NCBI GenBank assembly: GCA_030248065.1
Contig: JASAMV010003530.1
Span: forward strand, 1 to 64,000
Direction of reading: 5' to 3'
Length of the DNA stretch: 64,000 nt
From: Rhynchonema sp. JSB1_4
Taxonomy: Eukaryota > Nematoda > Chromadorea > Monhysterida > Xyalidae
This document shows positions 1-59,913 of the stretch, piece by piece (position 1 is the stretch's first letter; every line of letters begins with the position of its first letter). The translations under genes were made by a program, and so were the position numbers. The notes under the pieces were generated by a model that ran no database searches, had not been told where the DNA came from, and worked only from the letters and a program-made list of their open reading frames with translations.

Positions 1-960
1 ACGTATTGCTCACTTTTGAGCTACGGGTTTGATTCCGTTGAAGCCCACTTGAAAGACCGGCAGGTATATGTATACAGTACATATATGAGCCTCAGAGACC
101 ACGGCAATGTCTTCTCTTATCAAGCTCTCCGACAGTAGGCTAGTACATACAGTAGGTGATCTGATTATATTCGCTTGCACTACCTTAGATCTAGATCATG
201 ATGACGTTGCATTCACAACGAAGCCATGGGCCATCGGCACCATCGCGGAAAACCAAATGTTTCATCGACTACCACCTTAGCCTAAGCCAAAGAAGTAGTC
301 GAGCCACGGTTTGTTAACCCTTTACCGATACCGAGCACATGTTGGACCTGAGAGTTACCTGAATTTCGCCAACGTACCGTGTCCTCGCGGTGAGGGTTCC
401 TCCTGAGCTGAGTGCGTTGACAATGCTGCTGCCACAGTACACATTCTTGACACATTTGTCACGACTCATTCGTTCGAACACATCGGTCAACATTCGCATC
501 GTGCGACTGCGACGCGCTTTGTCTGTGCAGTGAACCGACCTTGGTTAAACAATACCGGCTGCAACTCGGCGTGAATTCTGCATGTACGCGTGCACGCCTT
601 TCACCGCTTCAGCACGTGGTGCATGTGGTGCATTAGGCCTCCTATGTACAGTATGTATGGGCAATCCATCGGCTCATGGCACTTTTTATACACACAGCGC
701 ATGCAGCAGCACACGCCATTTTCTAAACCAAATTTACACCTAGGGCGAGTGCCATAGTTTGATGTCCACTTTTTAAGTTATCCGGTTTTCATTTGCTGCT
801 TGCCATGAGTAACTGAACGAAGTACAATAAATGGAAAAGTATTCGGGTCTCGGAAAAAAACGGTTTTTTTTTCGGTTTTTTTTTCGGAAAAAAACCGGTT
901 TTTTTCCGCCTGCCAGTATAAACCCGGCCCGATTCCCACCTCTGGTAGGGTACATACTGT
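1..960. other. No gene recognised
   Basis: No exon-like reading frame with matching splice sites could be supported. A short poly-C/poly-T stretch with inverted T- and A-rich runs lies near 850-910, and a G-rich transposon mosaic begins near 940. One RATGTTTCA motif lies at 258-265. Confidence 0.5.
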
Positions 961-2165
961 AGGTGGAAAAAATCGGGGCGGGTAGGGGGTACCGTATTGT
1001 CGGAAATAGAACTCGGGGGGTCTATTTTTTCACTGGGGTCATTTTGGGGGGGTTCAATTTATGGGGGGGGTCAATTATTGGGGGGGTTATATTTTTCATT
1101 TGGCCCCCCGACGAAAAAAATCATTGTTAATAATGCCCATAAAAATGGCTTGTTTTCGGTATTTTCTAACTTCAACAGCGGCAATTAGGCTTAAAAAGCT
1201 GTATTCTGTTGTGTATGCAAGCTTAAACAACGTTTGACACGACAACACAGTCCTACCATACCACTAATCTGTGGTACGGTGAAGGTTGGGGTGGGGTTCT
1301 ATTAATGGGGGGGGGTCAATTAATGGGGGTTCTATTTTTGATTTCGAGCCATTTAGGGGGGGGGGGTTCAATTAATGGTGGGTTCTATTTCCGACAATAC
1401 GGTAGTGTACCTGGGATTTTGGGGGGGGGGCGGGGAAATCCGTTTTGGGGGGAGGGGGGGAGATTTTTGGGGCGGCTAGGGTACGAACACTAGTTTTTTC
1501 GGGTGCCGTCTCTTATGTACTAAAAAGTACATATATCGCGCGCAGCGCGAGATTTTTTGCACTTTTCAGGGTTTTCGGTCGAAATTTGGGCACTTTTTGT
1601 ACCGAAAAATGGGCATTTTGGGGGTAAAAATCGGGGCGGGTAGGGTACCAGGGCGGGGCGGGCAGGGGGGTAGGGTACAAGAGCGGGGGCGGGGAGCAGT
1701 GTGGTTCCTGGTCGCGGAGGGGGAGATAGCGGACCCTCTGTTTTTTTGGGAGGGGGAGATAGTGTACCCCCGAGGGGGGAAGGGGGGGAGACCCAAATTC
1801 GGGAAAAAGTCACTTTGTGAGGTAGAAAATTTGACCTATTTTTTGCCCATTTTTGGAAAAAATTCTTCATAAAAAGGGTATTTTGGCGACTTTTGAGAAC
1901 ATTGACCTGAAAATCACACATTTTAGGCCTAAAAATGCCCATTTTAGGCCTAAAAATGGCCATTTTAGGCAAAAATTGGGGGAGATAGTGTACCCGGAGG
2001 GGGAGATAGGGGGATAGTGTACCACCCGAGGGGGAGATAGCGTACCCGAGGGGGGACCCCCCTCCCCCCAGGAACTACACTGGCGGGTAGGGGTAGCGTA
2101 CCAGGCCGGGGCGGGTAGGGTATCATTGGGGGGACCCTCCCACCCCCCCCCCCAGCCACAGCACT
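940..2165. mobile_element. G/C-rich non-autonomous transposon mosaic
   Basis: Long G-runs on one strand and C-runs on the other alternate with repeated short units such as TAGGGTACC and GGGGGAGATAG. The right edge ends in CCACAGCACTG, the same end seen at 3040 and (inverted) at 19268. Long frames here, such as the repetitive one on the minus strand at 1520-1972, come from the repeats and are not genes. The left edge is blurred. Confidence 0.6.
992..1402. mobile_element. TA-flanked foldback element, nested
   Basis: Terminal inverted repeats of about 23 bp (CCGTATTGTCGGAAATAGAA at the left, its complement at the right) are flanked by TA at 990-991 and 1403-1404. The host repeat has an uninterrupted copy near 19320-19350 that reads straight across the insertion point with a single TA, which confirms a TA target site of Tc1/mariner type. 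No transposase is encoded. Confidence 0.8.
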
Positions 2166-2559
2166 GCACCCGATGTTTGGCATGGTACTGTTACCAATAA
2201 TGTGATGGGTCTGTGTTATTTGGGTGGCTTGTGTGTAGCTGTTGTTGGGCTTGGTATGAAAGGGCCATTCGGCTGTTACAAGAATAAGGGTTTATGGCAT
2301 ATTGGATAATGGGTAAGGTGAGGGTAAGGAATACAATAAAAGGGCGAGTAGGGTGACCGCTCGTCAGATGGTACAACGATGGAACACAAGCGGGGTGAAC
2401 ACCAAACTGGGCAGAACACCGAACTGAGCAGAACACCAAACTAAAGCATGAAGCCGTTAGGCGGCCAGAGAGAAACGTCATGGCTGGTGGGCGGAGTTAG
2501 CCAACCAGTAGGTCCGTGACAGTACCCCCCTTAGGTACATACCTAACCCCCAGGCCATC

Positions 2560-3040
2560 GGCTCTGGTGCAGTAGGTATCTCTCCGAGCGCGGTACAGTA
2601 GGTATCCCCCTCCAGAGTACCTCCAACACTGGGGGAGGGGGTCCCCCCAATGGCACCCTACCCGCCCCGCCCTGGTACACTACCCCCTACCCGCCCCGCT
2701 CTGGCACCCTGCCCCCTACGCGCCCCGCTCTGGTACCCTACCCGCCCCGATTTTTGCCCTCAAAATGCCCATTTTTCGGTCAAAAATGACCAAATTTCGA
2801 CCGAAAACCCTTAAAAGTGCAAAAAATCGCGCGCCACGCGCGATATATGCACTTTATAGCACATAAAAGTAGGCACCCAAAAAACTTGTATTGTACCCTA
2901 CCCGCCCCGAAAAATCTTCCCCCTCCCCCCAAACCGTATTCCCCCCCTCCAAGATTCCAGGTAGGTACACTACCCCCAACCCGCTCCGGATTTTTCCACC
3001 TATGTACCCTGCCCGCCGCGCAAAAGTAGCCACAGCACTG
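2560..3040. mobile_element. C-rich transposon ending at a splice acceptor
   Basis: This is a repeat of the same family as 19268-19450, in inverted orientation. Its end CCACAGCACTG stops at 3040, directly before the TTTTGCAG acceptor of the first visible zinc-finger exon. The 300-400 bases to its left (2170-2560) hold no recognisable gene. Confidence 0.55.
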
Positions 3041-3048
3041 TTTTGCAG

Positions 3049-6000
3049 CCGTCGTCGTCATCGTTCAACAAAGATTCTGAAACCGATATCAGCAGCAGCA
3101 ATCGCAGTCTGTCGCCAAACTCCAACTCACCGCGCTCGGAATCACCTCCCTCCAGGTTTGCAAGACCGGCCGTCGTATGAAGCCACAGTTGTCATTGTCA
3201 GGCTCAGGGGTCAATCGGCTCAGGTACTCCACTCACTGCTGGCAGTGGCAGAGGCCGTCTCAGAATTTTTGTCGACCCCCAGATTTCTGACCGAAGTCAT
3301 CTAGGTATCTATCGCAGAGGCGTAGCTAGGTTTGAATTTAACGGGTTCCGTATTAGACACCTACACCTTGCAACCAGTAGTGCAGTTGGGGGGAGGTTGC
3401 TGGGTCCCCCTGGTATGGGGTGTGGGAAATTGGCCAGCGGTATGGGGTGTGGGACATTTTTCACTTTTGGAACAAGCACCCCTAAGAAGTGACTTTTTGA
3501 TCCCGAGAAGTGCCAAAACTGACTGACCCTTTTTCCGCCTAAAAATGTCAAAAAATCGCTTGCTGCCGCAAGAAAACTCTGTTTTAAGCATTTTTAGACC
3601 ACTGCTTGGTACTTTTATAAGACTTGTGGGGTCATTTTTTCAGACCCCCTCGGGTATGGGAAATTTTTGATTTCTGGGGTATGTATGGGAAATTTTCCGA
3701 AAATTGGGCTGGGTGGAAAATTTCGATTTCTCAACGACCCCACCACACGCACACGCACTATTTCGTTCCAGATTTTCGAACTCACGCTCCCATATAACCA
3801 GTGATGCACCTGAATCGACAGATAAATGGGCGAGCGTTGCACACGATAATAATGATGCGATGATCGAATCGAATGTCAGTGGGCAGCAATTTGATCCTCA
3901 GCCGGTTGACACAGCACGGTGAGTTGATGGACTATTTTAGTTGAATTAATCAATTACCGACAAAGCCCTTCTTGATTGCGAAAGGCTCACCGGGTGGCTG
4001 GTTGTTTCGCGCAATCAGTGAGAATGTGAAATGCTCCAATGTAAGGTTGTGAGGCTGATGGTCAATGAATGAAACAGGGTGCTAAATTTTGCTCTCTCTT
4101 CCCTCCCATTCCGGTGAATGTGTTTTCGCGGTGTTATAAACGTTTTATATTTTTCAGAATCTGCAGGACATAGCAACAGCAAGGTGTTGGGCTTTCCATT
4201 ATGTGTTTACCTTGAAACATTTTGCGTTCCTGAGAAGGCCTGAGTGAATTGAATTTTATGATGATAAGACAGACAGACAGTTTAAAGCACCAGCAAAGCG
4301 AAACACACGTGTATATGCACCTGCATGCAGGGCTGGGCAAAAAATAAAAAAACAATTTTTTTTGAATAACGTTTTTGAAAAAAATCAAAAAAACTTTTTT
4401 TTAATTTTTCGGGGGAACAAAATGTTCTAAAACGTCCAAAAATGGTCTTTTTGGGGGTTATTTTTTTGTAATTTCTTCTCAAGGGTCGAAAAATTTTCTT
4501 AACATAATCACCTTTGCGGCATGTATTTGGTACCTAAGATGCCCCAAATGATGTTCTTTATACCTTACCGTGATACATGAGACACAGTATGCACGTACCT
4601 ACATGGTACTTCGATCAGTGGTGTCGTTGGGGGGGGAGAAGGGGGTTACCCCCCCTAGTATCCGGTATCCGGTATCTTGATTTTTTCACCCAGAGGTATC
4701 CGGTATCCTGACTTTTTGTCCAGGGGTATCCTACCCTAAAATTTTTCCGAAAACCGTGAAAATCGCCCATTTTTACCTCCAAAATGTTTAAAATCGCTTG
4801 CTGGCGCAAGCATAACCCCCAAAATGACCATCTTTTGCACTTTCAACACCGATTTTGCTCGATTTTCCTCTAAAAAATTCACCTTTTTTGAACAACCCCC
4901 CTGGGTATCCGAGATTTTTTATTTTAGGGAGCAACCCCCCTGGTATCCGAGATTTTTCATTTTGGGTATCCGGTATCTGAAAATTTTGGATTTTGGGTAT
5001 CCGGTATCCTGACTTTTTGATTTCCCAACGACACCACTGACTTCGATGTCATACCCCATCGGGTCATATACGACTGATTCAGCGACCCGACAAGTATTTC
5101 TGCATCTTATATTCTCAATTCTGTGTGGTCTATGAGTGAGCTTATTCGACCACAAACTGTTGTCTTATACCACAGAGCAGCAATCATCGGTCCATATCAA
5201 GCACAGACTGTTGGATCGCACCTAAGTGATGCGAACCAAGTCACAAAAGTGACTTGTCAATCAAAGTTGCATTTTTTCGCGCTTTTGCACGTTTTTAGGC
5301 AAATTTATTGAAAACTTTCCCCGAATCTGAGGCTTTTTAAAAACACTGTCTAAGAATTTTTTTCCAACCCTGCTCGGTGCCTGCATGGCTGGCACGTACA
5401 TAAATGCCGATAACCGATTGCAGATCGATGCAATTGCGCACGCCATCACCGACGCCCCTATTCCACCCGGTCGAGCCAACTATGGTTGATTCAGCCTCTC
5501 AACCAATCGAATATGCCGTCATCAGTTATGACGAACCACCGCCGGGATTCAAACCGGAAACAAATTCGAATGATTCTGTTGACAAAAGATCAACCGGCGG
5601 CAAAAAGCCGCGACCAATAACGCAGATTATGGCATTTGACACGTTGGTGCACTTTTTATTGTTTTGGACCACGATATTTTTTGTAAGTAGGGACTAAAGC
5701 GAAACAATTTGCGATTTGGCAAGTAGATGTTTCTGAGTTGCAGCTATTGAGCAAGTAAAATATGCCGACAAGTGATTCGACTTGACGAAAAAATTTTGTT
5801 TTGAACAAGTGCCACAACAATACTTTGAATTTTTTTAAATTTTTCAGATTGGAGAAACGAATCAAAACTGAGCCGCAAACGACCGAATTCGACGTCTATC
5901 GAGATGATGACCCGCTCGCATCACTGTTGCCACCGAGACGAAAGTCAGTTTTTCTGTGTTTTTTTTTATTTTCTTGAATTTAACCCGAGAAGCGTAAATA

Positions 6001-9000
6001 AGAAGATAAATCCAGGAGAAAGCCGACCGTGCCGGTCATGCCAGCCCATTATCCGACAAGGGAATTCTGGGAGGAACAATGTGCATCGGTGCCGTATGAA
6101 GTGCGTGAATTCAGTCCTGCCGTAGTTTTGGCCGAACCGGAGATGCAGGTCAGCTTGAACGATTTGTGTTGTATTTTTATTGAATATTATCAGTTGTTTT
6201 CACTTTTTCCTTTCGCTGTTTAGGAATTTCTCGATGCCGCTCATGCACGTCGCGCCGAACGTGCTAAACGTAAGCAGGTTATCGACGTAACACCGAAACC
6301 AGAAGCAGACATCAGGTTTGTGTGTATAAAGCTGATAATTCCTTCCTTATTTTGATAAAAATGCCGATGATGTAAAAATACATGAGCCAATTCTTTGCTG
6401 AGATTGATATCGCTGTTGATTTCATGATAGGACTGAGGCATTGGAAATCAATAACATTGTTTCTTTGTTTCAAACATGGTCACATTTTCAAACTCACCTT
6501 TTCTATTTAGCATTGTATACACACCGGGTAAGGTCAAAAGCCCGGCGCGATATGCGACCACATGTTTGGCCATCAACTGCGGCATTTGCAAGAAGTGGTT
6601 TTCAAGTTGGTGCTTTTGCTAAAACTGATGTTTCAATTAGCAGACTCGCATGTTTTCCTTGAAAATCAGGCGACATGGCCGTATGCGATCATCTTCGACA
6701 ACCGAAATCCGGCGGATCTCCGCAAAAACAGCAGGCAGCGGAAGTTCAAGAGCAGTCTGATAGTTCGTTTCGGGACGAACCACCTGAAGCCAGTCCTTCG
6801 AACAAAACCGATGAAATCATAGCCGAATTGGGCGATGATCCGATTCTGTGCTCAATTGTGAAAGGTTTGATGTGCTACTTTTTAGGTTGCCTGTTTATAG
6901 TGGCATTATGTAAAGAACATTCACCTCGCTGAGTTATGCAGAGGTTAACAGCAGTTCGCGATGAGAACTCGGTTATCGTTGAAACGTCAAGACCAGTGTA
7001 GTTCCTGGTCCGGCGCGGCGGTTAGTGTACCTACCCCTTTTTCCGGGGGGGGGGTGGGTGTCAACCCCGGGGGGGAGGGGGGGGGGGGGAAAAAAAAAGG
7101 AAAAAACAACCTTTTAAGGGGGAAAAATTACCCGTTTTTTTCCCCCTTTTGGAAAAAAACTCTCCAAAAAGAGGATTTTGTGGCGACGTCAAACTACAAC
7201 TAAAAAAAAACCCCCCCCACTACTAACAAAAACCCCCATATTAGGCCAAAAACTGCATATAAGAGGGAAAAAAGAGGGGGGGGGGGGGCGGGGGGCGGGG
7301 TGGTGGGCAGCGTGGCCGCGTGGCGCGGGGGGGGGGGGGAGCCTGGGGGGGACCCCCCCCCCCCCCCCCCCCCAGGAACTACACTGGTCAAGACTAAGAG
7401 TCATAATTTCACAGTACAGACGGTCACTATCGCAAGACAAGACGGTGCACAATATTCATTTATATTCCGGATTCAGTCGCAAAGACTGCAAGCTCGCGCA
7501 TTCACCTTTTTCTGCAGAAGAAGTCCAAGTGCAGCCGGACCAACCGCCGACAGCAGCTATTGAGAGTGAGACAATCATGCTGTTGCCGCCAGTTAGCCAT
7601 CGACTGCAGTGCAGCTTGTGTCGTCATGAATTCGCTAGTGACAGTGCTCTGGCTGAACACATGGCTGCTCATGAGACTGCCGAACGCAAATACAACTGCT
7701 CCACTTGTCCGATGCAGTTTCTGGATGAGAAGGAGTACGCCAGACACATTCTGTCGGCGCATGATGGTTTGTGGGAATGTGGGACGGTTTGTTTCGGACG
7801 TTTTTGTTCAATAGTGGGCGGCAGTATAGTACAGGTCACAGGGCGGCATCAGAAATTGAAAGTAGGATTTTTTAAGCGTTAAAAATGACGAAATTTCCTA
7901 TTTCCCAGTTTCGCAAAATAAGAAAGCTGGAATTCTTTACTTGCTAAACGACACAAACTTCATAGTTTCTGTTTCCTACCTTCACGTAAGGCCGCCGTTA
8001 AGGACGTAATCTAGATTTACTGACCACACTAATTTCGACCTGCACTGAAGTTTTCCTATCAGCTATCTGGGAACAACGGCAGTGGCATCAGCAAATCTCT
8101 AAACACAAGGAGTCACGAAACAAAGGCATGACAAAACCAATTTGACAGCGCTCAATCTGTTGATCGTTGTTTGATGGTGCCGTGACCCCTCTCTCTTGCT
8201 CTTTGTTTTCTTTTATATTTGGCGTGAGAAATAAAATCGAATCAAATGAACACAATCCAACATCAACAATATTGCAGCCGAGCGTCCGTACCCGTGCAAA
8301 CATTGCGCCGAGTGTTTCGTCAGTCGGTTGGTGTCTATCATTATTTATTTTTCAAATTTTGCCACAGTTTCAGAACACCGTCTACCTGATGTGTTCGGGA
8401 CTATAATTTTTTCGGTCACCACATTTGTCAATTTTCACCGTTGTATGTGATGAACTTTGAGACAAAACATGCTAACATTGCAGCTACTATCTAACGATCC
8501 ACATGCGTTCGCATTCAATCAGTCGTCAAACCCTGGTGCAACAACGCAAGAAGGAACGACCGTTTCACTGCGAAAAGTGTCCGAAGCGATTCGCTGAAGA
8601 ACCGCACTTGAAGAGACACTACAAAGTGCACACTGGTTAGTTTGAGTTGGCCGTTTGCTGAATTTGAATATTTTTGTTTTTCTACGGTTTAACTGCGGAA
8701 TTACACATGAAGTGTGGTGCTCCTGTTATCGGATAAATGAAACATTTCGAGACGAGGCTATTCGTTTGAGTGATGGAATTCTTGCCAGTTGTATTGTTTG
8801 TGTCAAATCTGGTGATTGGATTTGAATCCGTCTTTATCATGTCATTTGACTCTTTTGTGTTGGATATGGAACATTCACCGCTCGATCAGGGTGAAATTGT
8901 TTCAAGATACAAAATGACACAATTTCTACGCTGATGGATGCGACATTAGTGATTCCAGTAAATTAAGAATTCTTGATTCAAAAATGGCACTAGTCAAGGC

Positions 9001-10054: not shown

Positions 10055-10113
10055 ATTAGCTTGGTATGACTTTGTGACTGTCTTGTTTGCTATAGTAAAT
10101 TTCTAATTTCGTT

Positions 10114-10340
10114 GCCTCATGCATTCTTACAGACGCAGGGAAACTCCCGCTCGAAGTCGAGGCAGGTAACAAGCTCAACACACAGTGAACAAGCCACGCA
10201 GCTGACACGCACAGCTTGTGTGACTGAAACATTCGAAACGCACGCGAGCCAGCTGCGTGGCTTGTTGACTGTGTGTTGAGCTTGTTGCCTGCTTCGACTT
10301 CAAACGGGAGATTTCCTGCGTCTGTAAGACTGCATGAGGC
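10114..10340. mobile_element. Palindromic MITE downstream of the zinc-finger gene
   Basis: Arms starting GCCTCATGCA(T/G)TCTTACAGAC are inverted copies over about 100 bp and meet near 10227. The loop holds an AATGTTTCA motif on the minus strand (10225-10233). It starts 60 bp past the zinc-finger stop codon. Confidence 0.8.
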
Positions 10341-11412: not shown

Positions 11413-14400
11413 CTACTCAGGAGTGAAATCTGCCAGCATTTCTTCTAGGCTAATCTTGTGGCTCTTTTCTGTCGAAGAGTGTTTGGGCAGTTCCGGTTCT
11501 TTGTCGATTCTAGGTTGCTTTGTAACGGGTGTCTGAAAGCACAATGTAATAGCGAGATTCAAACCTGGCGTTGTGAGTGACCGATTTGCATGGCAACAAA
11601 CCACTGAGCTACACGCACCTCATCCTGCAAAGTGCCATAGAGCACGTCAACAACATCGCTAGAGTCGGAATCATCTGAATCTAACGTCAGAACGGGCGGC
11701 GGTTCGCTGGGCACGGTTGAAGAGGGTACAGCTGAAATATCAGGGGGTGGTATCAATATCCAAAACGGTGGATCATCTGACTTTGTTGGCTAACAATTTC
11801 GAGATTTACTCCTGCTTTTTGTTTCGACGGGCGTAAAAGTTGTTACCAGTCAACTGACGTACAACGTTTTTCAAATAAATGACACCAGTAAAGTTCGCCA
11901 ACGCAAACATACCAACCTAGTGATCGTCTCGATGTCGGGATAAAGTTCAAGTATTTGCTGAAAAAAAATCCTTGACACAGAAAGTCACATACCTGGACCC
12001 TTTTCCGGTTCCTTTACCGATGGCAGCTCAGCGGATGAAACATTGATCGTGAAATCTTGTGTGACCACATTCGGTGTGTCGACAATGACGGCGTCGTCAG
12101 GCAGTTTCGGCAAAGTCGTTGTTGCTGTGGTGGGCAGCGGGTTGATGTCGTCTTCAGAATCAGATGAATCCATTTCCATCGTTTTCTCGCCTTGCGTTCG
12201 ATCGGCGTCTGAACAATATTTAATGAATCGTGGCGAAACTCTCGATAGTAAACACGGAGGAACGCTATTTCGGTCACCTATCTGCCTAAAATGTCACCAT
12301 AAACATGGTAAACTGGTGTTTATGATTCCAGTGCTTTACTGAAAACAAACAACGCAAAAATTAAAAAATAAAAATACCATTTTCCTCCTCCCCATCATCT
12401 TGTTCATTACCAACGCGCAATATTGGATCACTGACCGACTCGGGTCGACTCGAACTGGCCAGCCAAGAACTGCAAAAAACGATCGATTGCTACAAAAGTA
12501 GATAAAGTAATAAAAATTTCAGATAAAAGATATCTGACCTGAAGTCAGGCGTGTCATACAAAGGTACCAGTGGTCGTGCTATGGTAGCGCACAGTGACAG
12601 ACCTTGGGCACACAACTGGCGATTTTCGTAATCGCAATCTTTCTGTTGTCCACGTGCGAATATGCGAGAGGCCACCTGAATGGTGTGATTATGATGAAAA
12701 AAAACTTTTCGGCGACAGAAAACAGGATGATCAATCCGGTCTAGCCTCAGCGTGATTATTTGTTTATCTTTCAGCCTGGGGACAAAATATGATGACAGTT
12801 TGCAGCACAAGCTCAGGCGACCAGATCATAAAAACTTTTATGTGTTCGCCGCACTTCATACATTTATGCCCACATAAGCGCAGCAGCTGATGTTTTATGG
12901 TCGATTGATCAGGCAAGCAGCAAAACGTACGGTCAATCCCAGTTTGAGCCGTAGTCCACCCACACTTGTAAACGCCACTATAACCCAATCAACCGATCTC
13001 TACCTGCACAGGTAGTGGCACAGACTGAGCGCGTGTTGTCAGCAGCGCGATTAGAATTTTCAATAATTCGGCTCGATATCTGGGCTCACGATGTGCGACA
13101 TTGCTGATTGTATCGCAGTAGAACGTGGATGTTTGCGAGCAGACCACGGACTGAAATAAAAAACATCAAATTCTCGTTGGATAAGATTTGAAAAATTATT
13201 TTATGCAAAAACAAAATACCTGAAGTTCGCTCAATAGCGATGGCGGCATCACGGGTCCACAGCGTCGACATAAAGTCGCAAGGAAACGACAGCTCGCCGA
13301 CAGAATTTGCAATGAATCGACACTTAACCGAGTGGATGAAGATTCCAATTGCATGTCCGAAGCTCGGTTGATCACCTGTGTAAACGAGAAAGTTACTAAG
13401 AATAAAAATATAATATTTTTTTATTGATGAAATTGAAAGAACTGACCTGCAAGTCATTGGCGCTGACTTTCTGGCCCTTCTTGCGTTTTACGGGCGTCGG
13501 ACTGATTTTGAAGGACACTTTCTGGTCAGCAGACTTGCCCGGTTGATTGCAAAGCAGATGACGTTCTGCAAGATTGGAACTAAATTGATGATGCAGTATT
13601 CAAGGCATATGAGAATGACAGCATAAGTCAACTAAATAAACTGAGATTGGCAATCTCTGGTTGATTGATTTTATTGAGCAAACACACGGCAAATGTCATG
13701 GGACTCGTCTGCCAAGGTCATCGAAGCAGCCTCAGGTTTCACGTCAGCAGCAGCAAGACTATCCAGCCGAATTCACAAAAAAGGTCACTCGACTCAATTA
13801 CTTCATGCCACAAAAAAAAATCTAAATTGAATGAAACACTTCACAAACCAATCGTAGCCCAACATCGTTCCACCGATTTGTGCACGCTCGCGTTCACGCC
13901 GTGGCATTCTACTGCCTCCGTTAATGTTTCATACGTTCGGATTCTCAGCTGGGCCATCAGATGTTTCATTTGCTGCGATTCTGCTATAAAAAATGTGTTA
14001 TTATATCATTACCATCATCAGAAAACACAAAAAGAGAGAAAACTTCGCAACAAACCTTCGACCGGCAATAACCAGTCGAGTTCCGTCAATAAATGCGATG
14101 TGAACGCTTGTATCCACGGGGTTAGCATCACCCGAGCAGCACTCTGCAGCACACGCGCAAGATCCAACGCAGCTATGTGAAACATCATCAACTGCTCGAT
14201 GGGTACTGTAGTGGCCTCCTTGAGACTCAGGCAAAGTCGCATGGTGGAGACCAGATGGGAAAGGGGCACTGGGATGGGGTTGGCGATTCGGTCATGGGCA
14301 ACCTGAACAAATAAAGATCGGTGTCAACGTTGGTGATCGGATCGGATTGTATCCGATCTGCCTTGATCATCACCAGACAATTTTGTATCTGTAATGTTTC

Positions 14401-41413: not shown

Positions 41414-42290
41414 GTGTCAGTGCACCTATGTAGGTAATTTTCCCGCTCAAATTTATCGTGAACACCCTGTAATTCACCCATTAATTTGTGTTTGCACCGA
41501 CACCGCATGCTTGCATTTTTTTCGCTGTGACATGGGCGTGGAGGCAATGACCTGAGAAGCTTTGTGCTGTGGATTAAAAAATTCGTAAAGGTGAGCCATA
41601 GCACGATAGCAGTACCAATCACACATAGCGAGCAACACGTGGTTTGCGTGTGATGAAGCCGATAAACAACGCACACACGACGACAACGTGTGCTAAATGT
41701 TTCATGATCTCAGCGCTTTCACACGCAAACGAAACGAGACGTGGCTACAGTACCCCATGTCTAAGAATTCAGGGTGATGCGGTGTGGTCCAAGACTGCAA
41801 AGCACGGCTGGTTTGCCTTTAAACATTTTGCAACCTGTAACAACCTTTTATTTTGGTATTTGATGTTGTATAAAACCGGAACATCACCGAGACAGTAACG
41901 AGTGAAAAACATAGACCTTGTCACACAAACATGTACATAAACAGTATGTCGCGAAGGATACACAATAAGCAATTTTCGACAAAAAAAACTTTGAAGTCGA
42001 GCTCTTCATGAACAATCATAGTCGTTTCCATGATTTGAATCCACCAGGTTAGTTCAGCCGGAATTGAGGACCACGTAGTGTTGTATATTTTATGTTTAAA
42101 ATATAAGGGAGGTGGTAATAAGGGGTGTACAAGGAGAGAGGATGGACCACCGAAGTCCATAGATGTACATACATACATACACAGGAGAATTGTCATTATT
42201 AAACCGGCGGAGTTTTCCGTCCAGAGCTCCAGACGCTTAATTCGGAACGGCTCGCACATGAGACTCACAAACCATGCTAAAGGTGCTAAC

Positions 42291-46547: not shown

Positions 46548-49500
46548 CTACGCTCTTTCAATGTAGAACTTTCCATTCGGGTCGCGTCTACAAGGAAATT
46601 CTGGTTTTGGAGCAGAAGCATCATGCGGCACCAAATAACACGCGTGCGAATGGTCCCAGTGAAATTCAACGTCCAGTTTACGTTCCAACATTTGTTTCTG
46701 GTTCTCGAACATGTTATAGATGTCGTATTGAATGGCTTTGCAATCAGACTTGGCTTTCTTCTCGCACTCCCACATGCATTCATCAATTGAGCTCACTGAA
46801 TTTACCGGACCTTTCAACTGCAATAATTGAAAGTGAGAGCCTTGCAAAAATTCCGTTAAATCTTAACTAATCGAAGTTTTTTGATACTTAGGATTATGGC
46901 GGACTTAGGGCGGACTTAGGTTGATCACGGAAACCGGAACACGGAAATATTTCCGTGTTTTTTGTTCCGTGAAAATATCTCAAAATCACGAACACGGAAA
47001 CAGCCCAAGACAGGTGCACTAACATTTGAAGGCTTCATGGGTCCCACGCATCCAAAACGAAGAGGCTTCCACTTATCTGCAAATTGAAGCGAGATTCATG
47101 TTCGCAAAATTTTCAACAATTCAAACTTACGTATACTTCTCTCCTTGGGTTTATAGGATCGCTGTATGTAGACAAACTGAGGATTCAGCTTTGTGCCATG
47201 TTGTTGTTGTTGTGTCCATTTGACGCATTCGTGGCGAAAGTCGTCGTCTGAATCTAGCTTGTTGTGCAGATAGCAGTCACCTGTGTGAAACAGACTTTGT
47301 TTGTGATGGTGGTGCAATTCGTTGTTGGTTACGCTCGTCCCTCCGCAGCAGGGTTGGATTAAAAAACGTTTATTATCGAACTTTTTTTCAAAAAAAACTT
47401 TTTAAATTTTTTTTTAAAAAATCACTTTTTTTATTCCGGACGCCGAAAAAATTGGTTTCTTGAAAAATGAAATTTCTGAATTCATGTTACTTAGGTATGT
47501 TTTGAGGGACACTAAAAGAACTTTTCCACTGACTTGCATGTTTACGTCGATCACCTGCGATTTAGCCCCTTTGGTCATGACTTTGAGAACCACGAAGGTA
47601 ACGCTATGGGTATATATGACAAAGGGAAGACCAACCTTCTGTTTGTGAATTTGGGGATAAATTTGAAGAGAGATTAAGCCTTACACCACACTCATGTTGT
47701 GTGAAAAGCAACAAATGTCAAATCCACACAACTGCAAATAGGCGAACAACGTGGAGTCTGTCGATAGCCCACGACACGCTCAATAACTGTGCAGTATACG
47801 GTATGGGGTGTCCTATATTATGCATGCAGCGATTGTTGGGATGTTTGGGAACTGTATGAGTCCATTACAACACCATTTTAAACTGAAATATAAGCGCCTC
47901 AGGCAATTTTTTGAGAATGGTGAGCAATAAAACGCATGAAAGCATACCTTTTTACCTTAAAAAGTAAAAAAAAACAGTAAAAAAGTGGACTTACTTTTTA
48001 AAATTTTGAAATAAAAAAAGTGGCCAACTTTGAAAAAAAATTTTTTTTGCAAAAATTTTTTTTACTTTTTTTTAATCCAACCCAGCTCCGCAGTGTTTGG
48101 GTTTGACACTCATGTTTAGGCTTGGACCTGCTACGAAACATCGACTAAATATGACTACTGCAATGCACGTACTGCAGCCAGTGACAGCCATCCATCAAGC
48201 CTGATGTTTCACCATACCTATATTTATATAGCAACCGATTGGTGTGATCCTTGCACCTGGCCCACCACTTATTGATATTTAAAAATTTTGGCATGTTTTT
48301 ATGATCCATTATTGTTGCCGACATCGCGACGAACACGTGACGTTCATTCATATTTGTACATGACCTTTCGGTTTAGTGCAGATTTAATGCCGAAATTAAT
48401 CGATAAACACAACCTCTTAGGAACAAAATTCTAAACAATTCATCAACCCTATTTTCTGGATTTCAGGTACACAAGAACAAATTCAAGAGGGCCGCCTGCT
48501 TCTTATCACAAGCATACGGTAGTCACTTGATCTTGTCCATGTTCGTTTTGAATTGTGCGCATAACACAGTATCATACAGTCAAACGCGCATAACACACGT
48601 ATTGCAAGCGCGCGCACTGGCAGCCAGGGTTGGGCAAAAAAAACAATTTTTTTTTTAAAAAGAACGCGTGTTTTTTTTAAAACACGGTTCTAAAAAATAA
48701 TATTTTTTAAAAACAAAATATTTTTTTTAAATTTGGCCGGGGAACAATATTGTCCAAAATCGTTCAAAAAATGGCCTTTTTCGAGCTTAAAGGGGCCTTT
48801 CGCATTTCAAATTGCCTTCAAACTTTGCACGCATTTGAATAGTGTTCAGGGCGTTATTAAACTCTCACGCACCAAGAACCCAATCTGCAGCATGCGACCA
48901 GGAGATGCACTTCAAGAGGAACATCCGGGAACAAAGTATGCCGCGGACCAGCACAATTTATACCTGCGCATTCAGGCAAGCTGCTTGATCAAAAAGGTGT
49001 CAAGGCGAATGAATGTTTCGCATGAAACTTGCAACACCGCTAACTATGGAATTTCGCTTTTCTTTTTATTTCGAGTTTCAACGAATTGTTCCAGCGTGAC
49101 AAGTAGACCTTGAAACATTTAGCAGCCACGCACGAGCAATTCGTTGCAATTCGAAATAAAAAGAAAAGCGAAATTCTATAGTGAGGCAGGGGCAAATATC
49201 GTGCGAAACATTCTGCGCCTTGACCGCCCTTGTTATCAGGCGAGTTGCCTGAACGCGCAGGTAGAAATTGGGCTGGTCCAGATTTGATTTTGTTCCCGGA
49301 TGTTCCTCTTGAAGGGCATCTCCTGAACGCATGCTGAAAGTTAGACCTCCGGTGTGTTTGACTTTGATGACGCCTTGACCACTGTCTAAACACATGCGAG
49401 GTTTGAAGGGGGTTTGAAATGGAAAGGCCCCCTTTAAAATTGGTGATTTTTTTCTCCCAGGGTGCGTGATGGTTTCTTTAAAAAAGTGCATGCGGCGCTT

Positions 49501-52500
49501 GTTTTTCACATCTTGGCGTCTCTGAAAGCGTTTACCATGTGCCTTGATGTAAAACATAAGGTACATGTGTTTATTTCGTCAGTAGTTCACGGATGACGAG
49601 CTTCATCAGAGCAATCAAAGTTGTTTAGACAACCAATATTCAGAACAAACAGCAAAATATCTGGTTTCTGTATAGGCAACCTACGTTATCACGTAAATGT
49701 ACCTCATTTGGGCATCTCTGATGCACACATACAGCAACACCAAGAGACAGAACATCGGTCAGTGGCCCACGTGGGCTTCAGGCCCCATCAGTTACTGGAA
49801 GGGTACAAATATAACACAGGAAAACTCGCCAATAAGCCACATTCAGTAAGTATAATTGCTCATCGTATATTTTATTAGCCATTTTTTTGCATTCATCTTT
49901 TATTTTCGCTAAAAAATTGAATTATATTTTTCATCTTCGAAAATTTAAAAAAAAATTTATTTAAAAAAATATTTTTTAAAAAAATTTTCGTCTAAAAAAC
50001 ATCCTTTTCCAACCCTGCTGGCAGCACTGTGTGGTGGGAGCGTACAGTCGGGAGCGTAAAGTCCCTAATGGCATACTGTGAACCTATGACAATTTGCGGC
50101 AGTTCTAATTTTTGTTCCTTCCCAACGTGATAGTCAAGAAGTGGCGGTCTATCTTTTTTCATGTCATGAATATAAACTTTGTTCATCGGCAACAATAAAT
50201 AGAACATAAAAAACCGACAAAAAATTCGAATATCAATGTTGGCGGGGAAGGTTTAACTACTGAAAGGGATTAAAATGGAATACTGCAGGGTTGGTTTTGT
50301 TTTATGTGGTGAAATTTGCGGTTCGAATGACCTGGATTTTGTTGCACAAGCGCACCTTGGTCATTGTTCTTCGTATCCTGGTGATACGTCAATGATTTGC
50401 ATTCTTTATCGTCCTTGCAGCTGGAGAGACAGTTGGCAAAGCCTTTGCCTGCCTTGTTGCTAACTTTCTTTGGTGACGCCTTCCCGTCTCGCTCGCCTTT
50501 GAAACACGCATTCAGCCGAGGGGGGCCCCAGGTGACCGAGCCTGGTTAGGTGTGGGTATTGGTCGCACAAAGAAGAACACAAGAATTCAACAATTTAATC
50601 CCGATTTTCATGCTCAAGCACTCTTAATCATTGCGCTATTTGTATATCTAACAAAAGATTTTCATCTGAAAAAAACTATACAGTTTCTGCACCATTAAAC
50701 ATGCGATAACTGACACACCTTGTGTGTAAATCGCGCAACGCGACATGATTTTCCCCCTTTACAAGTCAGGAAAAAATGTTGACGAACTCGTATATAAGTC
50801 ATTTTGCAACCAATAGCAAGCAAGAATTAAGGGCAAACTACGCCAACACGAGCCCGATTTCGGAGGTGGTGAACTTGCAAAACGCAAAGAAAGAGAAAAT
50901 CATCATGCTCCATGTTGTATGCCACTACGTGTAACGTTTCCCAAATCAGCAGCCACGTCATGAATGTTTCACCATTTTGCCAGCTCCGAAATCGGGCTCG
51001 TGTTGGCGTAGTTTTACTTTACATATGTACAGTCTGCCCCCTTTATGGTAACTGACCCTCTATAGTGGAACCCTGTTTACATTGATGTCAGGTCCCAAAT
51101 TTTCACCTGTTATAAGAACTCTCTGAAGAAGGGAAATTTTTCTGTTGTTTGTTATTTAGGATTCATACAGTCGTCTCGTTGTAGGTTTTGTAGATTTATT
51201 GTCAGGGTTTGTGGTATAAGCAAAGTCACTAACGGTACAACTAAAGAATGCAAGAAAGAGCAAAGATTATATAGGGACGCGACATGATGTTTGCAAAAGC
51301 CCCAATCGGGGGGGGGGGGGGAGGAAATCAGGAGAATTAGATTATTAGCGACACAAAGTGGCGTGCCGCACAGAAAGTCACTCCCAAAATATTGGCACAA
51401 CGGGCAAATAAAACACCAGGAAATTGCTAATGACAGAAATTTCCTGCAATCTCTTTACAGTGGAAATTTTTTTGTTGCGTACAGTGACACACTGTGCATT
51501 CTGAGTCGAACCTAACACACTGAAACTCTCTCCCTTTACAGTGGCAAAAATCTAATGCCCCACGATTAAGCACCAAAAATGGTCCCCAAACAGCCACAAA
51601 TGAGAAATGCAGCCCACTCAAGCTCAACACCAGGCTTTGTGTCTGTTATTAGCATTAGGGTGTTGTTTCTGCAATTTTACAGTAGTACGTCTGAAATAGG
51701 GCACATTCATGACCAACAAAACGCACTGTTCCCCGTGCAACGAATGCTTCGTCACATGCAAAATATGCCCTGTGTGGAGCACCCTGTAATTGCTTCACAG
51801 TGGAAATGCTTTATGTTTTTTAAATCGTATCGTTATGGAAATTCTTTACAGAGACGAAAGTGACTGGGTCCGTTTACGTCACCATAAAGCAGGTAGACTG
51901 TAACAATTACCATTGGAACCACTGCAAATCACGCTAAGATCCATACAGTCTTACCTTTACACTTGTACAAAGTGTTTATTTTACGAATGTCCCAAAACGT
52001 CAGGTACCACCTATTTGGACGCAGTTTACCGCCGGACTGTTTCATTACGTTCGGATTACTGTAGCCCATGATACTGAAGATTTTTGTATCACGTATAGTC
52101 AAATACAGCGGCAGAGTGCCAACATTTTGAGAGAGTGTTCAACATGTCCAACCTGCGCTCATCATATGGATAATCCAAGTAGGCCCAGATCGAATTCTCA
52201 TGTTTTTCGTAGTCATTGCCACTGTTCACATCATTTAGCTGAAGTTCAGCATTTTGCAATTTTAAAATAGAAGTGATGGATATATAATCCGCATATATGG
52301 ACGCGCATGTACAATACGGGATGCAACAAGCCATAAAATACCTATGGTTACCTTTGACGAGATTTTGATGCCACCGCGATACGATCGGTCCTTGCGTTGG
52401 TGTTCGTGCTGGATACCGATTGCATGCATCAGCTCGTGCACAATGTAGCCCTGCAGCCTTACGATCTAGTGATTTGTCTGTCCGACAAGCCCGCAAGAAA

Positions 52501-55500: not shown

Positions 55501-57314
55501 TTTTGAGACTTAAAAATAAAAAATTATCCCCAGTTAAAGTACAATCGGTGAAAGTACCCTACGAATGGGGTGTAAGTACCCCAGTGGGGTCATTCCGGCA
55601 TTCTCCGATAAAACTCGGCTGGATACTGACTGCTTCAGCGTTTGGCCATGTCAGTGCTGTCTGGTTCTCGATCACATCGTCGTTGCCCTTTAATACACGA
55701 ACCCAATCCAAATCGAAGTGGTCGAAAGGTCCTGAGAGCAAATAAGAAATTCAGTAACTGGGCCCGGTCCACAGAATCTGATTGCCTTAACCATTACACC
55801 ACTAACATTAACACTTACATACACTAACACTAACGTTTACACTAACACTAACGTTGACACTAACACCATCATAAATGTAAGGATTTTCTCTTTTGTGTTT
55901 ACTTTTATGTTAACGTTTGTGTTGGTGTTAGTGTAAACGTCAGTGTTAGTGTAAGTGCTAATGTTAGAGTTTGTGTTAATGTTAATGTAATCCGCTTCTG
56001 TGGACAGGGCCCTGGAAATTCCAGGCTGGAATCCCAACTACCAGCCAGCGTTAAAAAATTTTAATTAACGAGCTTTTTTTAAAAAAATGTTTTTGACGAA
56101 AACTTTTTTTATTAGAAAAAGTGTTGCAAACGGCGTTTCAGGATAAATGAAATCGATGCAACATATTTTTCAAAAATTGAAAAATTTTCGCCTGAGACCC
56201 AACTTGTGTGGTAACACCCGGTCGTATTGTGCAGATTCTATGGTCTCTACCAGTCTGAGGTTGATGTTGACTAACGATGTTACTCTAATGTATTGTAGCA
56301 TGCCGTACAATGTATTTTAATGCATCTAATGCCGTATATCTGATATACGACCGTCAAAATATCGATTACAGCCCAAATCTTGCGCGTCAGATCGACTTTG
56401 CGCGCCCGGTTTTGCACCAGACTTGCATATATACATGTGTAGTAGCATTCAGTAGTACATTATCGATGCCACATCACTATAAAAGACCAGCCCCGCGCAT
56501 CCCTGTACGGATTTGGGGACACTAGACGGGACCCGTGCCTACGGCCCGGCTACAGCGCCGCGCCCGTGCCGTCCCCCCCCCCCCGAAGACCCCGTTAGCA
56601 TACCCAAAGCTACCCGTGAAAATTGACCCGTCCGCCCTTCCGAGGGAGGGGGCCACAGACAGACAGACAGACATACATACATATAGTCTTTCCGTTTTAT
56701 AACAGTCCAGAGGCGGTATACAGAAAATGTTTCAACGCCTTAAAAACAGCAGTCATCGTCGTGGATGATAACCAACAGGCCGACAACGTGGCTCGAAACA
56801 TGCGTGCTACTTGATAGCTGCTGTTGCGATGAAACATTTGCTGTATACTTTGTTTGGACCGAGAATAAAATGAAAGACTATACATACGCCTTCCTGTTTT
56901 AGTAGTATAGATATACAGGGCGCCGCAGGCGCGATTTTGGAAATATTGTCCCGTCCATAGAAAGAAAGTGCCAATTTTTTGCCTCGAAAAAAGGCCATTT
57001 TTAGACATTTCAGCCCATTTTGGGCAACTTTTTTTAAAAACAGCAGAATCCGAGTTTCAAAAAAATTTTTAACCACTTTTTGCTAAACAAACCTGCTACC
57101 AGCGTGTATTGTGAATGCCAATGAAAATGTACTGTAATATAAGCCCGTTTGTCGGCTTCGATGGATAAAAAATGAACTCACTGCTGGTAATCTCATGACA
57201 GGCCTTGCATCCGTGCTTCTTCTTCTTCTCTGTGCGTGTCACGAATCCGTAAGTGATCCAGACACACGTGGCTAGAATCAGCACCGAAAAGCTCACGGAT
57301 CGGTGCAAGCGCAT
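46548..57314 (-). CDS. Secreted astacin metalloprotease with two apple/PAN-like modules, 11 exons
   Basis: Zinc endopeptidase predicted to be secreted. Exons: 57314-57182, 55731-55631, 55398-55297, 54236-54069, 52450-52352, 52238-52153, 52073-51955, 50541-50356, 47280-47131, 47076-47024, 46817-46548 (TAG). Every junction phase agrees, giving 488 residues. Exon 1 is a signal peptide (MRLHRSVSFSVLILATCVW). The mature protease begins near WPNAEA-IPYFIS. The zinc site HELMHAIGIQHE fits HExxHxxGxxHE, and the Met-turn is SIMGY rather than the common SIMHY, keeping the Tyr. After KCKG come two cysteine modules of similar layout: ACFKG...NCLSSCKDDKECKSL...DCYLH and GCVGP...ECMWECEKKAKSDCKAI...ACYLV. 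I call them apple/PAN-like from cysteine spacing only. A hAT element lies just past the stop, and several lie in introns. Confidence 0.85.
47349..48085. mobile_element. hAT-like element, TSD CTCCGCAG
   Basis: Starts CAGGGTTGGATTAAAAAA and ends AATCCAACCCAG. CTCCGCAG lies at 47341-47348 and 48086-48093. It sits in an intron of the astacin-apple gene. Confidence 0.88.
48625..50017. mobile_element. hAT-like foldback element, TSD CTGGCAGC
   Basis: Starts CAGGGTTGGGCAAAAAA and ends TTTTCCAACCCTG. CTGGCAGC lies at 48617-48624 and 50018-50025. The interior is an imperfect palindrome (for example AATTTCGCTTTTCTTTTTAT at 49049 and its complement at 49155) with its dyad near 49112, where a minus-strand AATGTTTCA sits. 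No transposase. Confidence 0.92.
50838..51011. mobile_element. Palindromic MITE, copy 2 (TACGCCAACACGAG ends)
   Basis: Same ends and interior as 9668-9844 and 59112-59284. It contains GAATGTTTCACCATTTTGCC. It lies in an astacin-apple intron. Confidence 0.85.
52937..53413. mobile_element. hAT-like element, decayed right end
   Basis: Begins CAGGGTTGGGCAAAAAA. The interior (GATATACGGAGTTTGACTTT, GGTTGAAACCCGTTTATTTT) matches 54373-54859 inverted and 59914-60408 directly. The right end GCCCAGCCC is degraded and no TSD is visible. Confidence 0.8.
54373..54859. mobile_element. hAT-like element, TSD CAGCCAAT
   Basis: Ends CAGGGTTGGGCAAAAAA and GCCCAACCCTG, with CAGCCAAT at 54365-54372 and 54860-54867. 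It is 487 bp, the inverted homologue of the 59914-60408 copy, and lies in an intron of the astacin-apple gene. Confidence 0.94.
55762..56022. repeat. Inverted hexamer arrays (ACACTA/TAGTGT)
   Basis: 55795-55865 repeats ACACTAAC-type units and 55915-55990 repeats the complement GTGTTAGTGT. Outer inverted ends are GGTCCACAGAA and TTCTGTGGACA. It forms a potential hairpin in intron 1 of the astacin-apple gene. Confidence 0.75.
56690..56905. repeat. Palindromic MITE with RATGTTTCA in both arms
   Basis: The arm GTATACAGAAAATGTTTCA near 56716-56734 recurs inverted as TGAAACATTTGCTGTATAC near 56830-56848. The outer parts (TTTTATAACAGTCCAGAGG) match less well. Confidence 0.55.
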
Positions 57315-58884: not shown

Positions 58885-59111
58885 GTTCACCCGGAAATCC
58901 GGGTCACCCGCGGGTGGGCGTTTGTGTGTAGGGATAGGCAGCGTCGCGAGAAAACTCACCCGGGTAGACCCGCGGGTCTGATTCTTTTACTTAGCAACAT
59001 CTTATACATAGGCAGCAGGTGGAAATTTGAATTATCTGCTGCAGGAACAGACACTCTGCGTATACAAAATGTCATGAAACGTTATCAATGAATAAAAATG
59101 GTATAGGCAAA

Positions 59112-59284
59112 CTACGCCACCACGAGCCCGATTTCGAAGGTGGTGAACTGGCAAAACGCAAAGAGAGAGAAAATCATCATGCTCCATGTTGTATTCCACA
59201 ACGTGTAACGTTTCCCAAATCAGCAGCCACGTATGAATGTTTCACCATTTTGCCAGCTCCGAAATCGGGCTCGTGTTGGCATAG
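59112..59284. mobile_element. Palindromic MITE, copy 3 (TACGCCAACACGAG ends)
   Basis: Same ends as 9668-9844 and 50838-51011 with small differences (CTACGCCACCACGAGCCCG at the left). The interior is nearly identical to copy 2, including GAATGTTTCACCATTTTGCC. Confidence 0.85.
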
Positions 59285-59913
59285 TTTTACTTTACATTAT
59301 CACTTTCATGTGTGTTATGTTGCTTTTTCGTGCGTTTGCTGTGGTTTGCTCATTTTTGTGCAAGGTATGAACAGGTTAAACAAGCAACTTGAAGCTGGCG
59401 TTTGGTCTGTGCTTCCCAAAGTTTGCAAACTTTGATCATGCAACATTAATCACATTGCACTAACTGCTGATATTGGTCCCACAATGACTATATGAGAATC
59501 CATCCAAAATTTTTCCTGAACTGACAAAGCAGAAAATTTAAATTGACATTGCGCGCCAACGTGTAATCACACATAAAGTATGCAGTAAGCGAAATGTTTC
59601 AGATATTGAAAACATGGTTGACTGGCTGGTTTATTTTCAGATTAAAATGTTTTGTAAGAAATACAAATAGCGCAGTGGTTAAGCGTGGCTCATCTTTGAA
59701 ATCCTGAAAATCAAGGTGGTTTTGGATGGATTCTCATATGGGCATTGTGCGACCGATATCATCGATTTTCTGCCTCTCACCCGCGGATGAGTCCGGGTCA
59801 GCTCACTACCGTAACCTGCTTATGCCTGCTGTGTTGGAGATATTTGCCGGGTCACACGCGAGCGACCCGCGGGTTGCCGGGTTGAACGTGGCCGCTGTTT
59901 TCCGTACTGTATA

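Follow-up and report, generated by a model that had tools for sequence, protein, structure and literature searches.

A 64-kb stretch of nematode DNA, the whole of which we call the window, raises the question of why one short word, RATGTTTCA, recurs in it on both strands, and whether its copies could be promoters of small RNAs, as the initial annotation suggested. The family TTR-52 occurs in the genome and marks it as that of a nematode.

Excess of the word and its two components

The counts from which the idea arose hold up on recounting. TGTTTCA is present 50 times in the window (26 on the + strand, 24 on the - strand; about 50 had been given), and the related 7-mers AGTTTCA, CGTTTCA and GGTTTCA occur 12, 12 and 10 times (about 10 each had been given). 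The 33 copies of ATGTTTCA, 32 of them directly preceded by A or G, were likewise as described, and the list of example sites was correct except for its first entry, which lies at 258 rather than 259. In 100 dinucleotide shuffles TGTTTCA averaged 22.1 copies (maximum 35) and RATGTTTCA, found 32 times in the window, averaged 3.24 (maximum 9). The annotation had named a genome-wide count matching shuffled sequence as grounds for giving the idea up. RATGTTTCA occurs 85,310 times in the 204-Mb genome (42,630 + and 42,680 -) and the reversed word 3,304 times (1,604 and 1,700), so a match to shuffled sequence is not what we find.

This signal is a mixture of a sharp 10-mer, TGATGTTTCA, and a less sharply defined word, AATGTTTCA. 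The window holds 13 copies of TGATGTTTCA versus 0.35 in dinucleotide shuffles, and 18 of AATGTTTCA versus 2.2; genome-wide, TGATGTTTCA has 37,556 exact copies versus 345 reversed, and AATGTTTCA 38,663 versus 1,974. A bias of base composition or short words as the source of the excess is refuted, since in all four word tests every one of the 100 shuffles stayed below the observed count and the reversed words are 20 to 109 times rarer genome-wide; we found no point in its favour. The excess of RATGTTTCA is a real signal.

The sites in the window are listed below. Their gene context was read in one gene, the window's glutamate-receptor gene, and copies were sought in a 314-kb sample of the genome.

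6626..6635, +: TGATGTTTCA, exact match
14178..14187, -: TGATGTTTCA, exact match
15317..15326, +: TGATGTTTCA, exact match
18217..18226, +: TGATGTTTCA, with one other, loosely matching stretch in the sample (E up to 1e-3); outside dispersed repeats by the stricter test
24880..24889, +: TGATGTTTCA, exact match, in one half of palindrome 24761-25845
25717..25726, -: TGATGTTTCA, exact match, in the other half of palindrome 24761-25845
29936..29945, +: TGATGTTTCA, exact match
33050..33059, -: TGATGTTTCA, exact match
34291..34300, +: TGATGTTTCA, antisense to the glutamate-receptor gene, adjoining a 3' splice site inferred by eye
35917..35926, +: TGATGTTTCA, antisense, in a glutamate-receptor intron inferred by eye
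37085..37094, -: TGATGTTTCA, sense, in a glutamate-receptor exon inferred by eye (frame without Pfam match)
37713..37722, -: TGATGTTTCA, sense, adjoining a glutamate-receptor 3' splice site inferred by eye (frame without Pfam match)
48202..48211, +: TGATGTTTCA, exact match
13960..13968, +: GATGTTTCA with A before it (AGATGTTTCA)
256..264, +: AATGTTTCA, weaker variant
4213..4221, -: AATGTTTCA, weaker variant
8738..8746, -: AATGTTTCA, weaker variant
10225..10233, -: AATGTTTCA, weaker variant, within palindrome 10107-10347
12036..12044, -: AATGTTTCA, weaker variant
13923..13931, +: AATGTTTCA, weaker variant
14393..14401, +: AATGTTTCA, weaker variant
15983..15991, +: AATGTTTCA, weaker variant
25313..25321, +: AATGTTTCA, weaker variant, within palindrome 24761-25845
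35754..35762, -: AATGTTTCA, weaker variant
40234..40242, -: AATGTTTCA, weaker variant
41696..41704, +: AATGTTTCA, weaker variant
49111..49119, -: AATGTTTCA, similar copies in the sample, palindrome 48787-49437; probably spurious
50963..50971, +: AATGTTTCA, similar copies in the sample; probably spurious
56726..56734, +: AATGTTTCA, weaker variant
56830..56838, -: AATGTTTCA, weaker variant
59236..59244, +: AATGTTTCA, similar copies in the sample; probably spurious
59593..59601, +: AATGTTTCA, similar copies in the sample; probably spurious

An Rfam scan of the window at gathering thresholds gave no match.

Form and setting of the sites

The 10-mer is strikingly exact. In the sample, 60 of 74 copies of GATGTTTCA are part of TGATGTTTCA, and single-base variants of TGATGTTTCAC at positions 1-10 have at most 4 copies each, compared with 30 for the word itself. 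The flanks lean to [G/T][C/G]TGATGTTTCAC. The motif is directional: C follows it, and the two bases in front are G or T and C or G, in that order. Neighbouring sites are in the same orientation in 18 cases and opposite in 16 by one count, 21 and 24 by another, and their spacing is clumped (variance/mean 1.75 over 31 bins of 10 kb). GCCTGA occurs within 100 bp of TGATGTTTCA at 19 of 56 sites, with 5.5 expected (21 of 59 once like flanks were removed); it was rejected as a partner word because its position relative to TGATGTTTCA is not fixed.

Some sites apparently lie in coding exons, as the initial annotation had conceded, judging by the glutamate-receptor exons inferred by eye. A coding relic was dropped as an explanation because the word is found in different reading frames and on both strands. 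The coding signal exceeds the mark at 7 of 56 sites, compared with 6% among 1,120 positions drawn at random and 9% among 321 TGANNNNTCA positions, a slight excess in both coding-score comparisons (p 0.02 each). An element read from transcripts, acting in splicing, as a branch point or in RNA binding, would fit two of the four glutamate-receptor sites, which adjoin 3' splice sites inferred by eye, and the motif can yield the nematode-like TTTCAG or TTTCACAG. However, these two sites are in opposite orientations, neighbouring sites lack a strand bias, and CAG follows only 5 of the 60 copies of TGATGTTTCA, and we regard a role at the RNA level as highly improbable.

The claim that the copies are not one repeat stands for TGATGTTTCA and has to be given up in part for AATGTTTCA. 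By a test that covers the 314-kb sample and detects only families with a second copy there, missing low-copy families, TGATGTTTCA lies in dispersed repeats at 0 of 60 sites versus 14.9 expected by area; 4 of the 60 are in two palindromes and 56 in unique DNA. For AATGTTTCA, 15 of 49 sites are in dispersed repeats, 4 in palindromes and 30 in unique DNA. A looser test matched 25 of 123 RATGTTTCA sites to another similar stretch of the sample, including 5 of 60 TGATGTTTCA sites, namely the four palindrome sites and the one at window position 18217.

Mobile elements and other repeats in which the word occurs by accident do explain part of AATGTTTCA: besides its share in dispersed repeats and the looser matches, it forms head-to-head pairs at a 26-bp offset (9 pairs, or 18 of the first 100 listed places), and the tandem units at one locus (L029) also contain it. 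For TGATGTTTCA, the absence from dispersed repeats is joined by its flanks, which are unique at 0.90 of sites versus a median of 0.05 over 403 enriched 10-mers; among these 10-mers a share of at least 80% is reached only by TGATGTTTCA, by words that overlap it with a shift and by a single simple repeat. The similar flanks between copies that a mobile-element repeat would be expected to leave were not found for TGATGTTTCA in the sample. As the source of the excess, repeats are very unlikely.

Likeness to the Ruby motif and to the U6 promoter

The Ruby core, which we take to be CTGTTTCA, is identical to ATGTTTCA at 7 of 8 positions, one base apart; TGATGTTTCA has TGATG in place of the 5' part of the Ruby motif. 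The canonical core is not strongly enriched here, with 6 copies in the window versus 33 of ATGTTTCA, and its excess in the 314-kb sample is mild (39 versus 14 reversed; 28 when pieces L009 and L010 are left out).

Passages of a study of nematode piRNA promoters describe GTTTC as the core of the Ruby motif, derive that motif from the SNAPc motif and note a GTTTC in the SNAPc motif of Romanomermis, which belongs to clade I (PMC6436959). They also describe piRNA loci that are dispersed within genes and lie in either orientation, an expected motif-to-21U distance of 42 nt in each species, a marked low-Tm signal downstream of P-type loci, and intragenic loci of P. pacificus that are 97% intronic (PMC6436959). 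Our sites resemble these P-type loci of Pristionchus pacificus in their GTTTCA core, in being numerous one-site loci, in lying in both orientations in genes and in belonging to a nematode. A GTTTC(A) core word is enriched genome-wide, as the counts of TGATGTTTCA show, and the sites are dispersed on both strands and within genes without being limited to clusters, the gene context being that of one gene. They differ from Ruby loci in their exactness over 10 bases, in lacking a visible 42-nt 5'U or low-Tm architecture, and in that some are apparently exonic, so that not every TGATGTTTCA site seems to be intronic.

Between 30 and 46 nt downstream of TGATGTTTCA neither T nor YRNT peaks (n=59), in a test of low power estimated to exclude only a fixed-offset signal shared by roughly half of the sites or a larger fraction. 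AT content around TGATGTTTCA is symmetric (n=59-60; if only a minority of sites had such a signal, it would escape detection), and thus gives no sign of a high-Tm then low-Tm signature; no clear TATA-like or T-run signal was seen near the sites either (n=59-60). At AATGTTTCA sites, the DNA 10-40 nt downstream has a lower AT content than that upstream (n=42, z -2.2).

A link to snRNA promoters is suggested by the genome's own U6 genes. Five U6 matches lie above threshold: two full-length genes, two 3'-shortened copies and one more (L033). All but the last carry GCTGATGCTACA at -58, which on the sense strand agrees with GCTGATGTTTCA in 10 of 12 letters without being identical. The chance of such a match is 0.003 over 30 sense positions or 0.0085 over the 89 scanned, doubled for both strands; these figures are post hoc, and the four U6 copies are copies of one another. 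This likeness is as expected of a SNAPc-derived element. The 14-mer U6 block TGATGCTACAGGAA, allowing at most one mismatch, occurs at 62 places, none of them on the contigs of the 8 U2, 9 U1 and 8 U5 genes above threshold. The likeness of TGATGTTTCA to the SNAPc-bound PSE of snRNA genes lies in this incomplete U6 match; the U6 block was not found upstream of U1, U2 and U5 at this stringency, and the dispersed sites lack a clear TATA-like signal downstream.

A 22-mer search of the genome found no canonical SL1, and a search for the SL1 family found none among the 50 scored of 52,251 first-look candidates, a result of little weight as the controls were also silent. Lacking canonical SL1, the genome probably does not belong to the groups with known piRNAs. 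A GPCR-like exon, searched for relatives that might place the species, had no homologue. In the portions of PMC4323106 on this subject, clade I and II nematodes are reported to lack PRG-1/PIWI and a nematomorph to lack long 5'U RNAs. Piwi-domain exons, identified at the domain level only, are present on 17 contigs.

A promoter element or a protein-binding word

TGATGTTTCA as observed is numerous, exact, without strand preference, sparing of repeats in the sample and similar to the U6 block. We tentatively propose, at somewhat under an even chance, that it is a dispersed promoter element of the SNAPc/PSE type and a relative of the Ruby motif of nematode piRNA genes. A SNAPc-like complex (SNPC-4, Myb-type) would bind every copy and place RNA polymerase II for one short transcript downstream. 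Such units would sit in or among ordinary genes in either orientation, like the P-type piRNA loci of Pristionchus, and their transcripts need not be PIWI-bound 21U-RNAs; SNAPc binding, transcription, the small RNAs and an Argonaute partner are what we infer from the element. The idea that RATGTTTCA marks small-RNA promoters thus appears partly supported by the sequence: the signal is genuine, genome-wide, mostly outside repeats, near the Ruby core and U6-like, but shows no downstream trace in a test of low power. Also counting against the proposal are the apparently exonic sites, the U6 block that was not found near U1, U2 or U5, and the reported lack of PIWI in clades I and II.

The main rival, which we consider a serious possibility though well below even, is that TGATGTTTCA is the site of a sequence-specific regulatory or architectural protein, a zinc finger or other, with no small RNA involved, used for example in chromatin organisation, insulation or homologue pairing. 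CTCF sites and the pairing-centre words of C. elegans are scattered words bound by zinc-finger proteins. TGATGTTTCA is similar as a word scattered over the genome but unrelated to them in sequence, and pairing-centre words are regional and repeat-borne, whereas TGATGTTTCA is genome-wide and, in the sample, outside dispersed repeats. A binding site would suit the symmetric flanks, whose GC content is slightly raised out to about 100 bp either way (n=60), the missing directional signal downstream, the high exactness across 10 bases, the dispersed repeats of the sample being free of TGATGTTTCA, and the slight excess of coding signal. It would also suit sites in both orientations and in inferred introns, splice sites and coding exons in different frames. 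Yet it gives no reason why the word should resemble the Ruby core as well as the block at -58 of U6, and the motif itself is directional.

In the literature on nematode regulatory or dispersed motifs and on enoplean genomes, we found no description of the word, and among the papers listed for the word itself the titles point to other subjects. The prevailing view is that nematode piRNA promoters were co-opted from that of snRNA genes, and the clade I and II worms sampled have reportedly lost the pathway. It is conceivable, with the balance of probability somewhat against it, that an early-branching nematode carries about 37,000 exact 10-base address words in unique DNA, exons included, for an undescribed genome-wide purpose with a SNAPc-derived or other dedicated reader. 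They might be one-gene small-RNA promoters outside the known piRNA groups, or a chromatin or pairing code. The promoter proposal predicts short RNAs at a fixed offset from the 37,556 TGATGTTTCA places. If it is true, dispersed small-RNA promoters would exist in a group thought to lack them; otherwise, the same kind of PSE/Ruby-like word would serve another genome-wide use.

An exact ten-base word

The initial annotation had counted about 50 TGTTTCA, 33 ATGTTTCA and 32 RATGTTTCA in the window, and our recount of the 64 kb returned exactly 50, 33 and 32. Dinucleotide shuffles give means of 22.1 for TGTTTCA and 3.24 for RATGTTTCA. The excess extends to the whole assembly (203.9 Mb in 5,747 contigs, with the window at C2146:1-64000; the scope of all genome-wide counts here), with 42,630 RATGTTTCA on the plus and 42,680 on the minus strand, against 1,604 and 1,700 for the reversed word (the same letters read backwards).

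The true word is longer and sharper, the 10-mer TGATGTTTCA, which occurs 18,829 times on the plus and 18,727 times on the minus strand (reversed word: 172 and 173). For closer analysis we used a 314-kb sample composed of the window and 25 pieces of 10 kb, 20 of them contig starts and five from the interior of contigs C7, C100, C900, C2700, and C3300. Contigs were taken at regular intervals of contig number, except C3 and C7, picked after sites had already been listed there; dropping their pieces leaves 53 of the 60 sampled TGATGTTTCA copies, in 294 kb. The reversed word occurs once in the full sample. The longer form TGATGTTTCAC has 30 copies there; words that differ from it by one base within positions 1-10 number between 0 and 4 each, and the last position alone tolerates any base (C 30, T 12, A 9, G 9). 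Near-misses are modestly overrepresented: the 30 one-mismatch neighbours of TGATGTTTCA add up to 73 copies, compared with 26 when the word is reversed, and 24 of the 73 are TAATG, AGATG, and CGATG forms. Flanks prefer G or T, then C or G, on the 5' side and C on the 3' side (n = 56).

A weaker 9-mer variant, AATGTTTCA, is also in excess genome-wide (38,663 vs 1,974 reversed). Eighteen of 100 listed places form nine head-to-head pairs, outward-facing and offset by 26 bp. The arrangement is seen, for example, at:

C13: 5074 and 5100
C22: 14827 and 14853
L015 (an individual stretch of the assembly, as are all L numbers): 1481-1489 and 1507-1515

The canonical Ruby core CTGTTTCA shows a mild excess in the sample (39 copies vs 14 reversed). 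Runs of C or G are very numerous in the window, with 78 overlapping CCCCCCCCC in 64 kb, strands pooled.

Repeats and distribution

The sites had been described as not belonging to one repeat, which holds for TGATGTTTCA and only in part for AATGTTTCA. Dispersed repeats, defined as self-BLAST matches of at least 60 bp with a second copy inside the 314 kb (low-copy families escape this definition), cover 25% of the sample and contain none of the 60 TGATGTTTCA copies, where 14.9 were expected; 56 copies are in unique DNA and four are two pairs in local palindromes. With the threshold relaxed to E up to 1e-3, another similar copy in the sample exists for five of the 60, those four and the site at window position 18217. 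The 49 sampled AATGTTTCA copies are mixed: 15 in dispersed repeats, four in palindromes, and 30 in unique DNA.

We compared 403 enriched 10-mers, each present 12 times or more, at 6 times expectation or above, and free of homopolymers of 5. Their median share of unique flanks is 0.05, against 0.90 for TGATGTTTCA (59 sites), and shares of at least 0.8 are otherwise reached solely by shifted overlaps of TGATGTTTCA and an ACATAC simple repeat. Outside these, the most repeat-free enriched 10-mer in the sample is the E-box-like palindrome GTCACGTGAC (14 sites, 71% unique flanks). Overlapping enriched words reading CTTCGCTGCGATATTTACATTCGCAT, each with some 50-140 copies in the sample, are probably one repeat family.

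Density of TGATGTTTCA across the 26 pieces falls as repeat content (Spearman -0.57, p 0.002) and GC content (-0.48, p 0.013) rise. Clumping of the copies (a variance/mean ratio of 1.75 over 31 bins and a CV of 1.56 for the gaps between 100 listed places) may in part reflect repeat content, and neighbours have no strand preference (18 same and 16 opposite; 21 and 24 in a second tally).

Long palindromes or fold-back inverted repeats, with halves or arms about 70-99% alike, are frequent and could represent either fold-back elements or chimeric products of DNA amplification:

Window: 24761-25845, 48787-49437, and 57695-58878
L023: 3095-6181 (~3 kb)
L027: 4032-4875
L026: 5482-7145
L042: 4103-5766

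Genes and nematode markers

One window gene carries four sites:

About 33.6-38.0 kb, minus strand: AMPA/kainate-type glutamate-receptor gene
34132-34305: contains a ligand-binding exon (E 6e-16 to GluA4)
34791-35222: contains a Lig_chan match
34291, 35917, 37094, and 37722: sites, two sense and two antisense

Two of them adjoin 3' splice sites, a third is in an intron, and the fourth is in an exon, with splice sites and exons read by eye; Pfam searches of four frames over these sites gave no match. Of ten frames over sites, one scored above the Pfam cut-off; it is a PhyH exon in L018, and the matched part takes in the site. Coding scores at sites run slightly higher than at control positions: 7 of 56 sites exceed the mark, compared with 6% of 1,120 positions drawn at random and 9% of 321 occurrences of TGANNNNTCA (p 0.02 for either control), under a weak codon model built from 1,256 codons of exons that in some cases contain sites.

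The TTR-52 transthyretin-like family is not known outside nematodes and has 15 matches above cut-off, six on contig C414; together with TTAGGC arrays, these identify the genome as nematode. The arrays are interstitial and short, three units each (window 17954-17971; L013, L023, L025, and L027). SL1 is general in Chromadorea; the canonical 22-mer, with up to 2 mismatches, was not found in the genome, which would point to an enoplean or other early-branching worm as the likely source.

Likeness to snRNA and piRNA promoters

We tentatively read the dispersed word as a SNAPc-type promoter element, at slightly under an even chance, on two likenesses. The Ruby core CTGTTTCA differs from ATGTTTCA by one base, and U6 promoters of the same genome carry GCTGATGCTACA at -58 on the sense strand, the expected PSE place, matching GCTGATGTTTCA at 10 of 12 positions. 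This block precedes four of five above-threshold U6 matches (full-length in L029 and L030, truncated at the 3' end in L031 and L032) and is absent from the fifth, L033; four weaker matches were left out of the alignment. The chance expectation for such a match is 0.003 in 30 sense positions or 0.0085 in the 89 scanned, doubled for both strands, a post hoc figure for four U6 copies that duplicate one another. Allowing one mismatch, the U6 14-mer occurs at 62 places (control 18), none on contigs of the listed U1, U2, and U5 genes. At 17 of 56 such places listed with their letters stands TGATGCTACAAGAA, one base off the U6 block (C118, C608, C1238, and others), which may belong to a repeat or another RNA gene family. 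About 1.1 kb downstream of the U6 gene in L029, at ~2705-3090 on the minus strand, lie ~29-bp tandem units with AATGTTTCA or AATGTTTCG.

Beltran et al. (2019; PMC6436959) conclude that the Ruby motif derived from the SNAPc motif and describe dispersed piRNA loci inside genes in some nematodes, and Sarkies et al. (2015; PMC4323106) describe PRG-1/PIWI as missing from clades I and II. Here, Piwi-domain exons occur on 17 contigs (54 exon matches, at the level of domain rather than clade).

At 59 non-redundant TGATGTTTCA sites, neither T nor YRNT is enriched 30-46 nt downstream (per 5-nt window T is 0.20-0.30, vs 0.275 overall) and the flanks show no AT asymmetry, nor was a TATA-like or T-run signal clear at TGATGTTTCA sites. 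We estimate that the T test could rule out a fixed-offset 5'U only where at least half of sites carry one, so a share near 20%, the figure published for P. pacificus motifs in active domains, is one it would overlook. AT content is slightly low on either side of TGATGTTTCA to ~100 bp (n = 60); at AATGTTTCA its downstream value at 10-40 nt falls below the upstream one (n = 42, z -2.2, one of ten comparisons). The missing downstream signals, like the absence of the U6 14-mer from contigs of the listed U1, U2, and U5 genes and the reported lack of PRG-1/PIWI in clades I and II, count against the promoter reading. Symmetric flanks and the lack of a directional downstream signal would suit a putative binding site of an architectural or regulatory protein, nearly as likely as the promoter reading, although the nearness of ATGTTTCA to the Ruby core and the U6 -58 block point instead to the snRNA/piRNA promoter family. 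The element itself is real, unusually exact, and unusually abundant, and that its dispersed copies would serve as small-RNA promoters is, though unproven, plausible.
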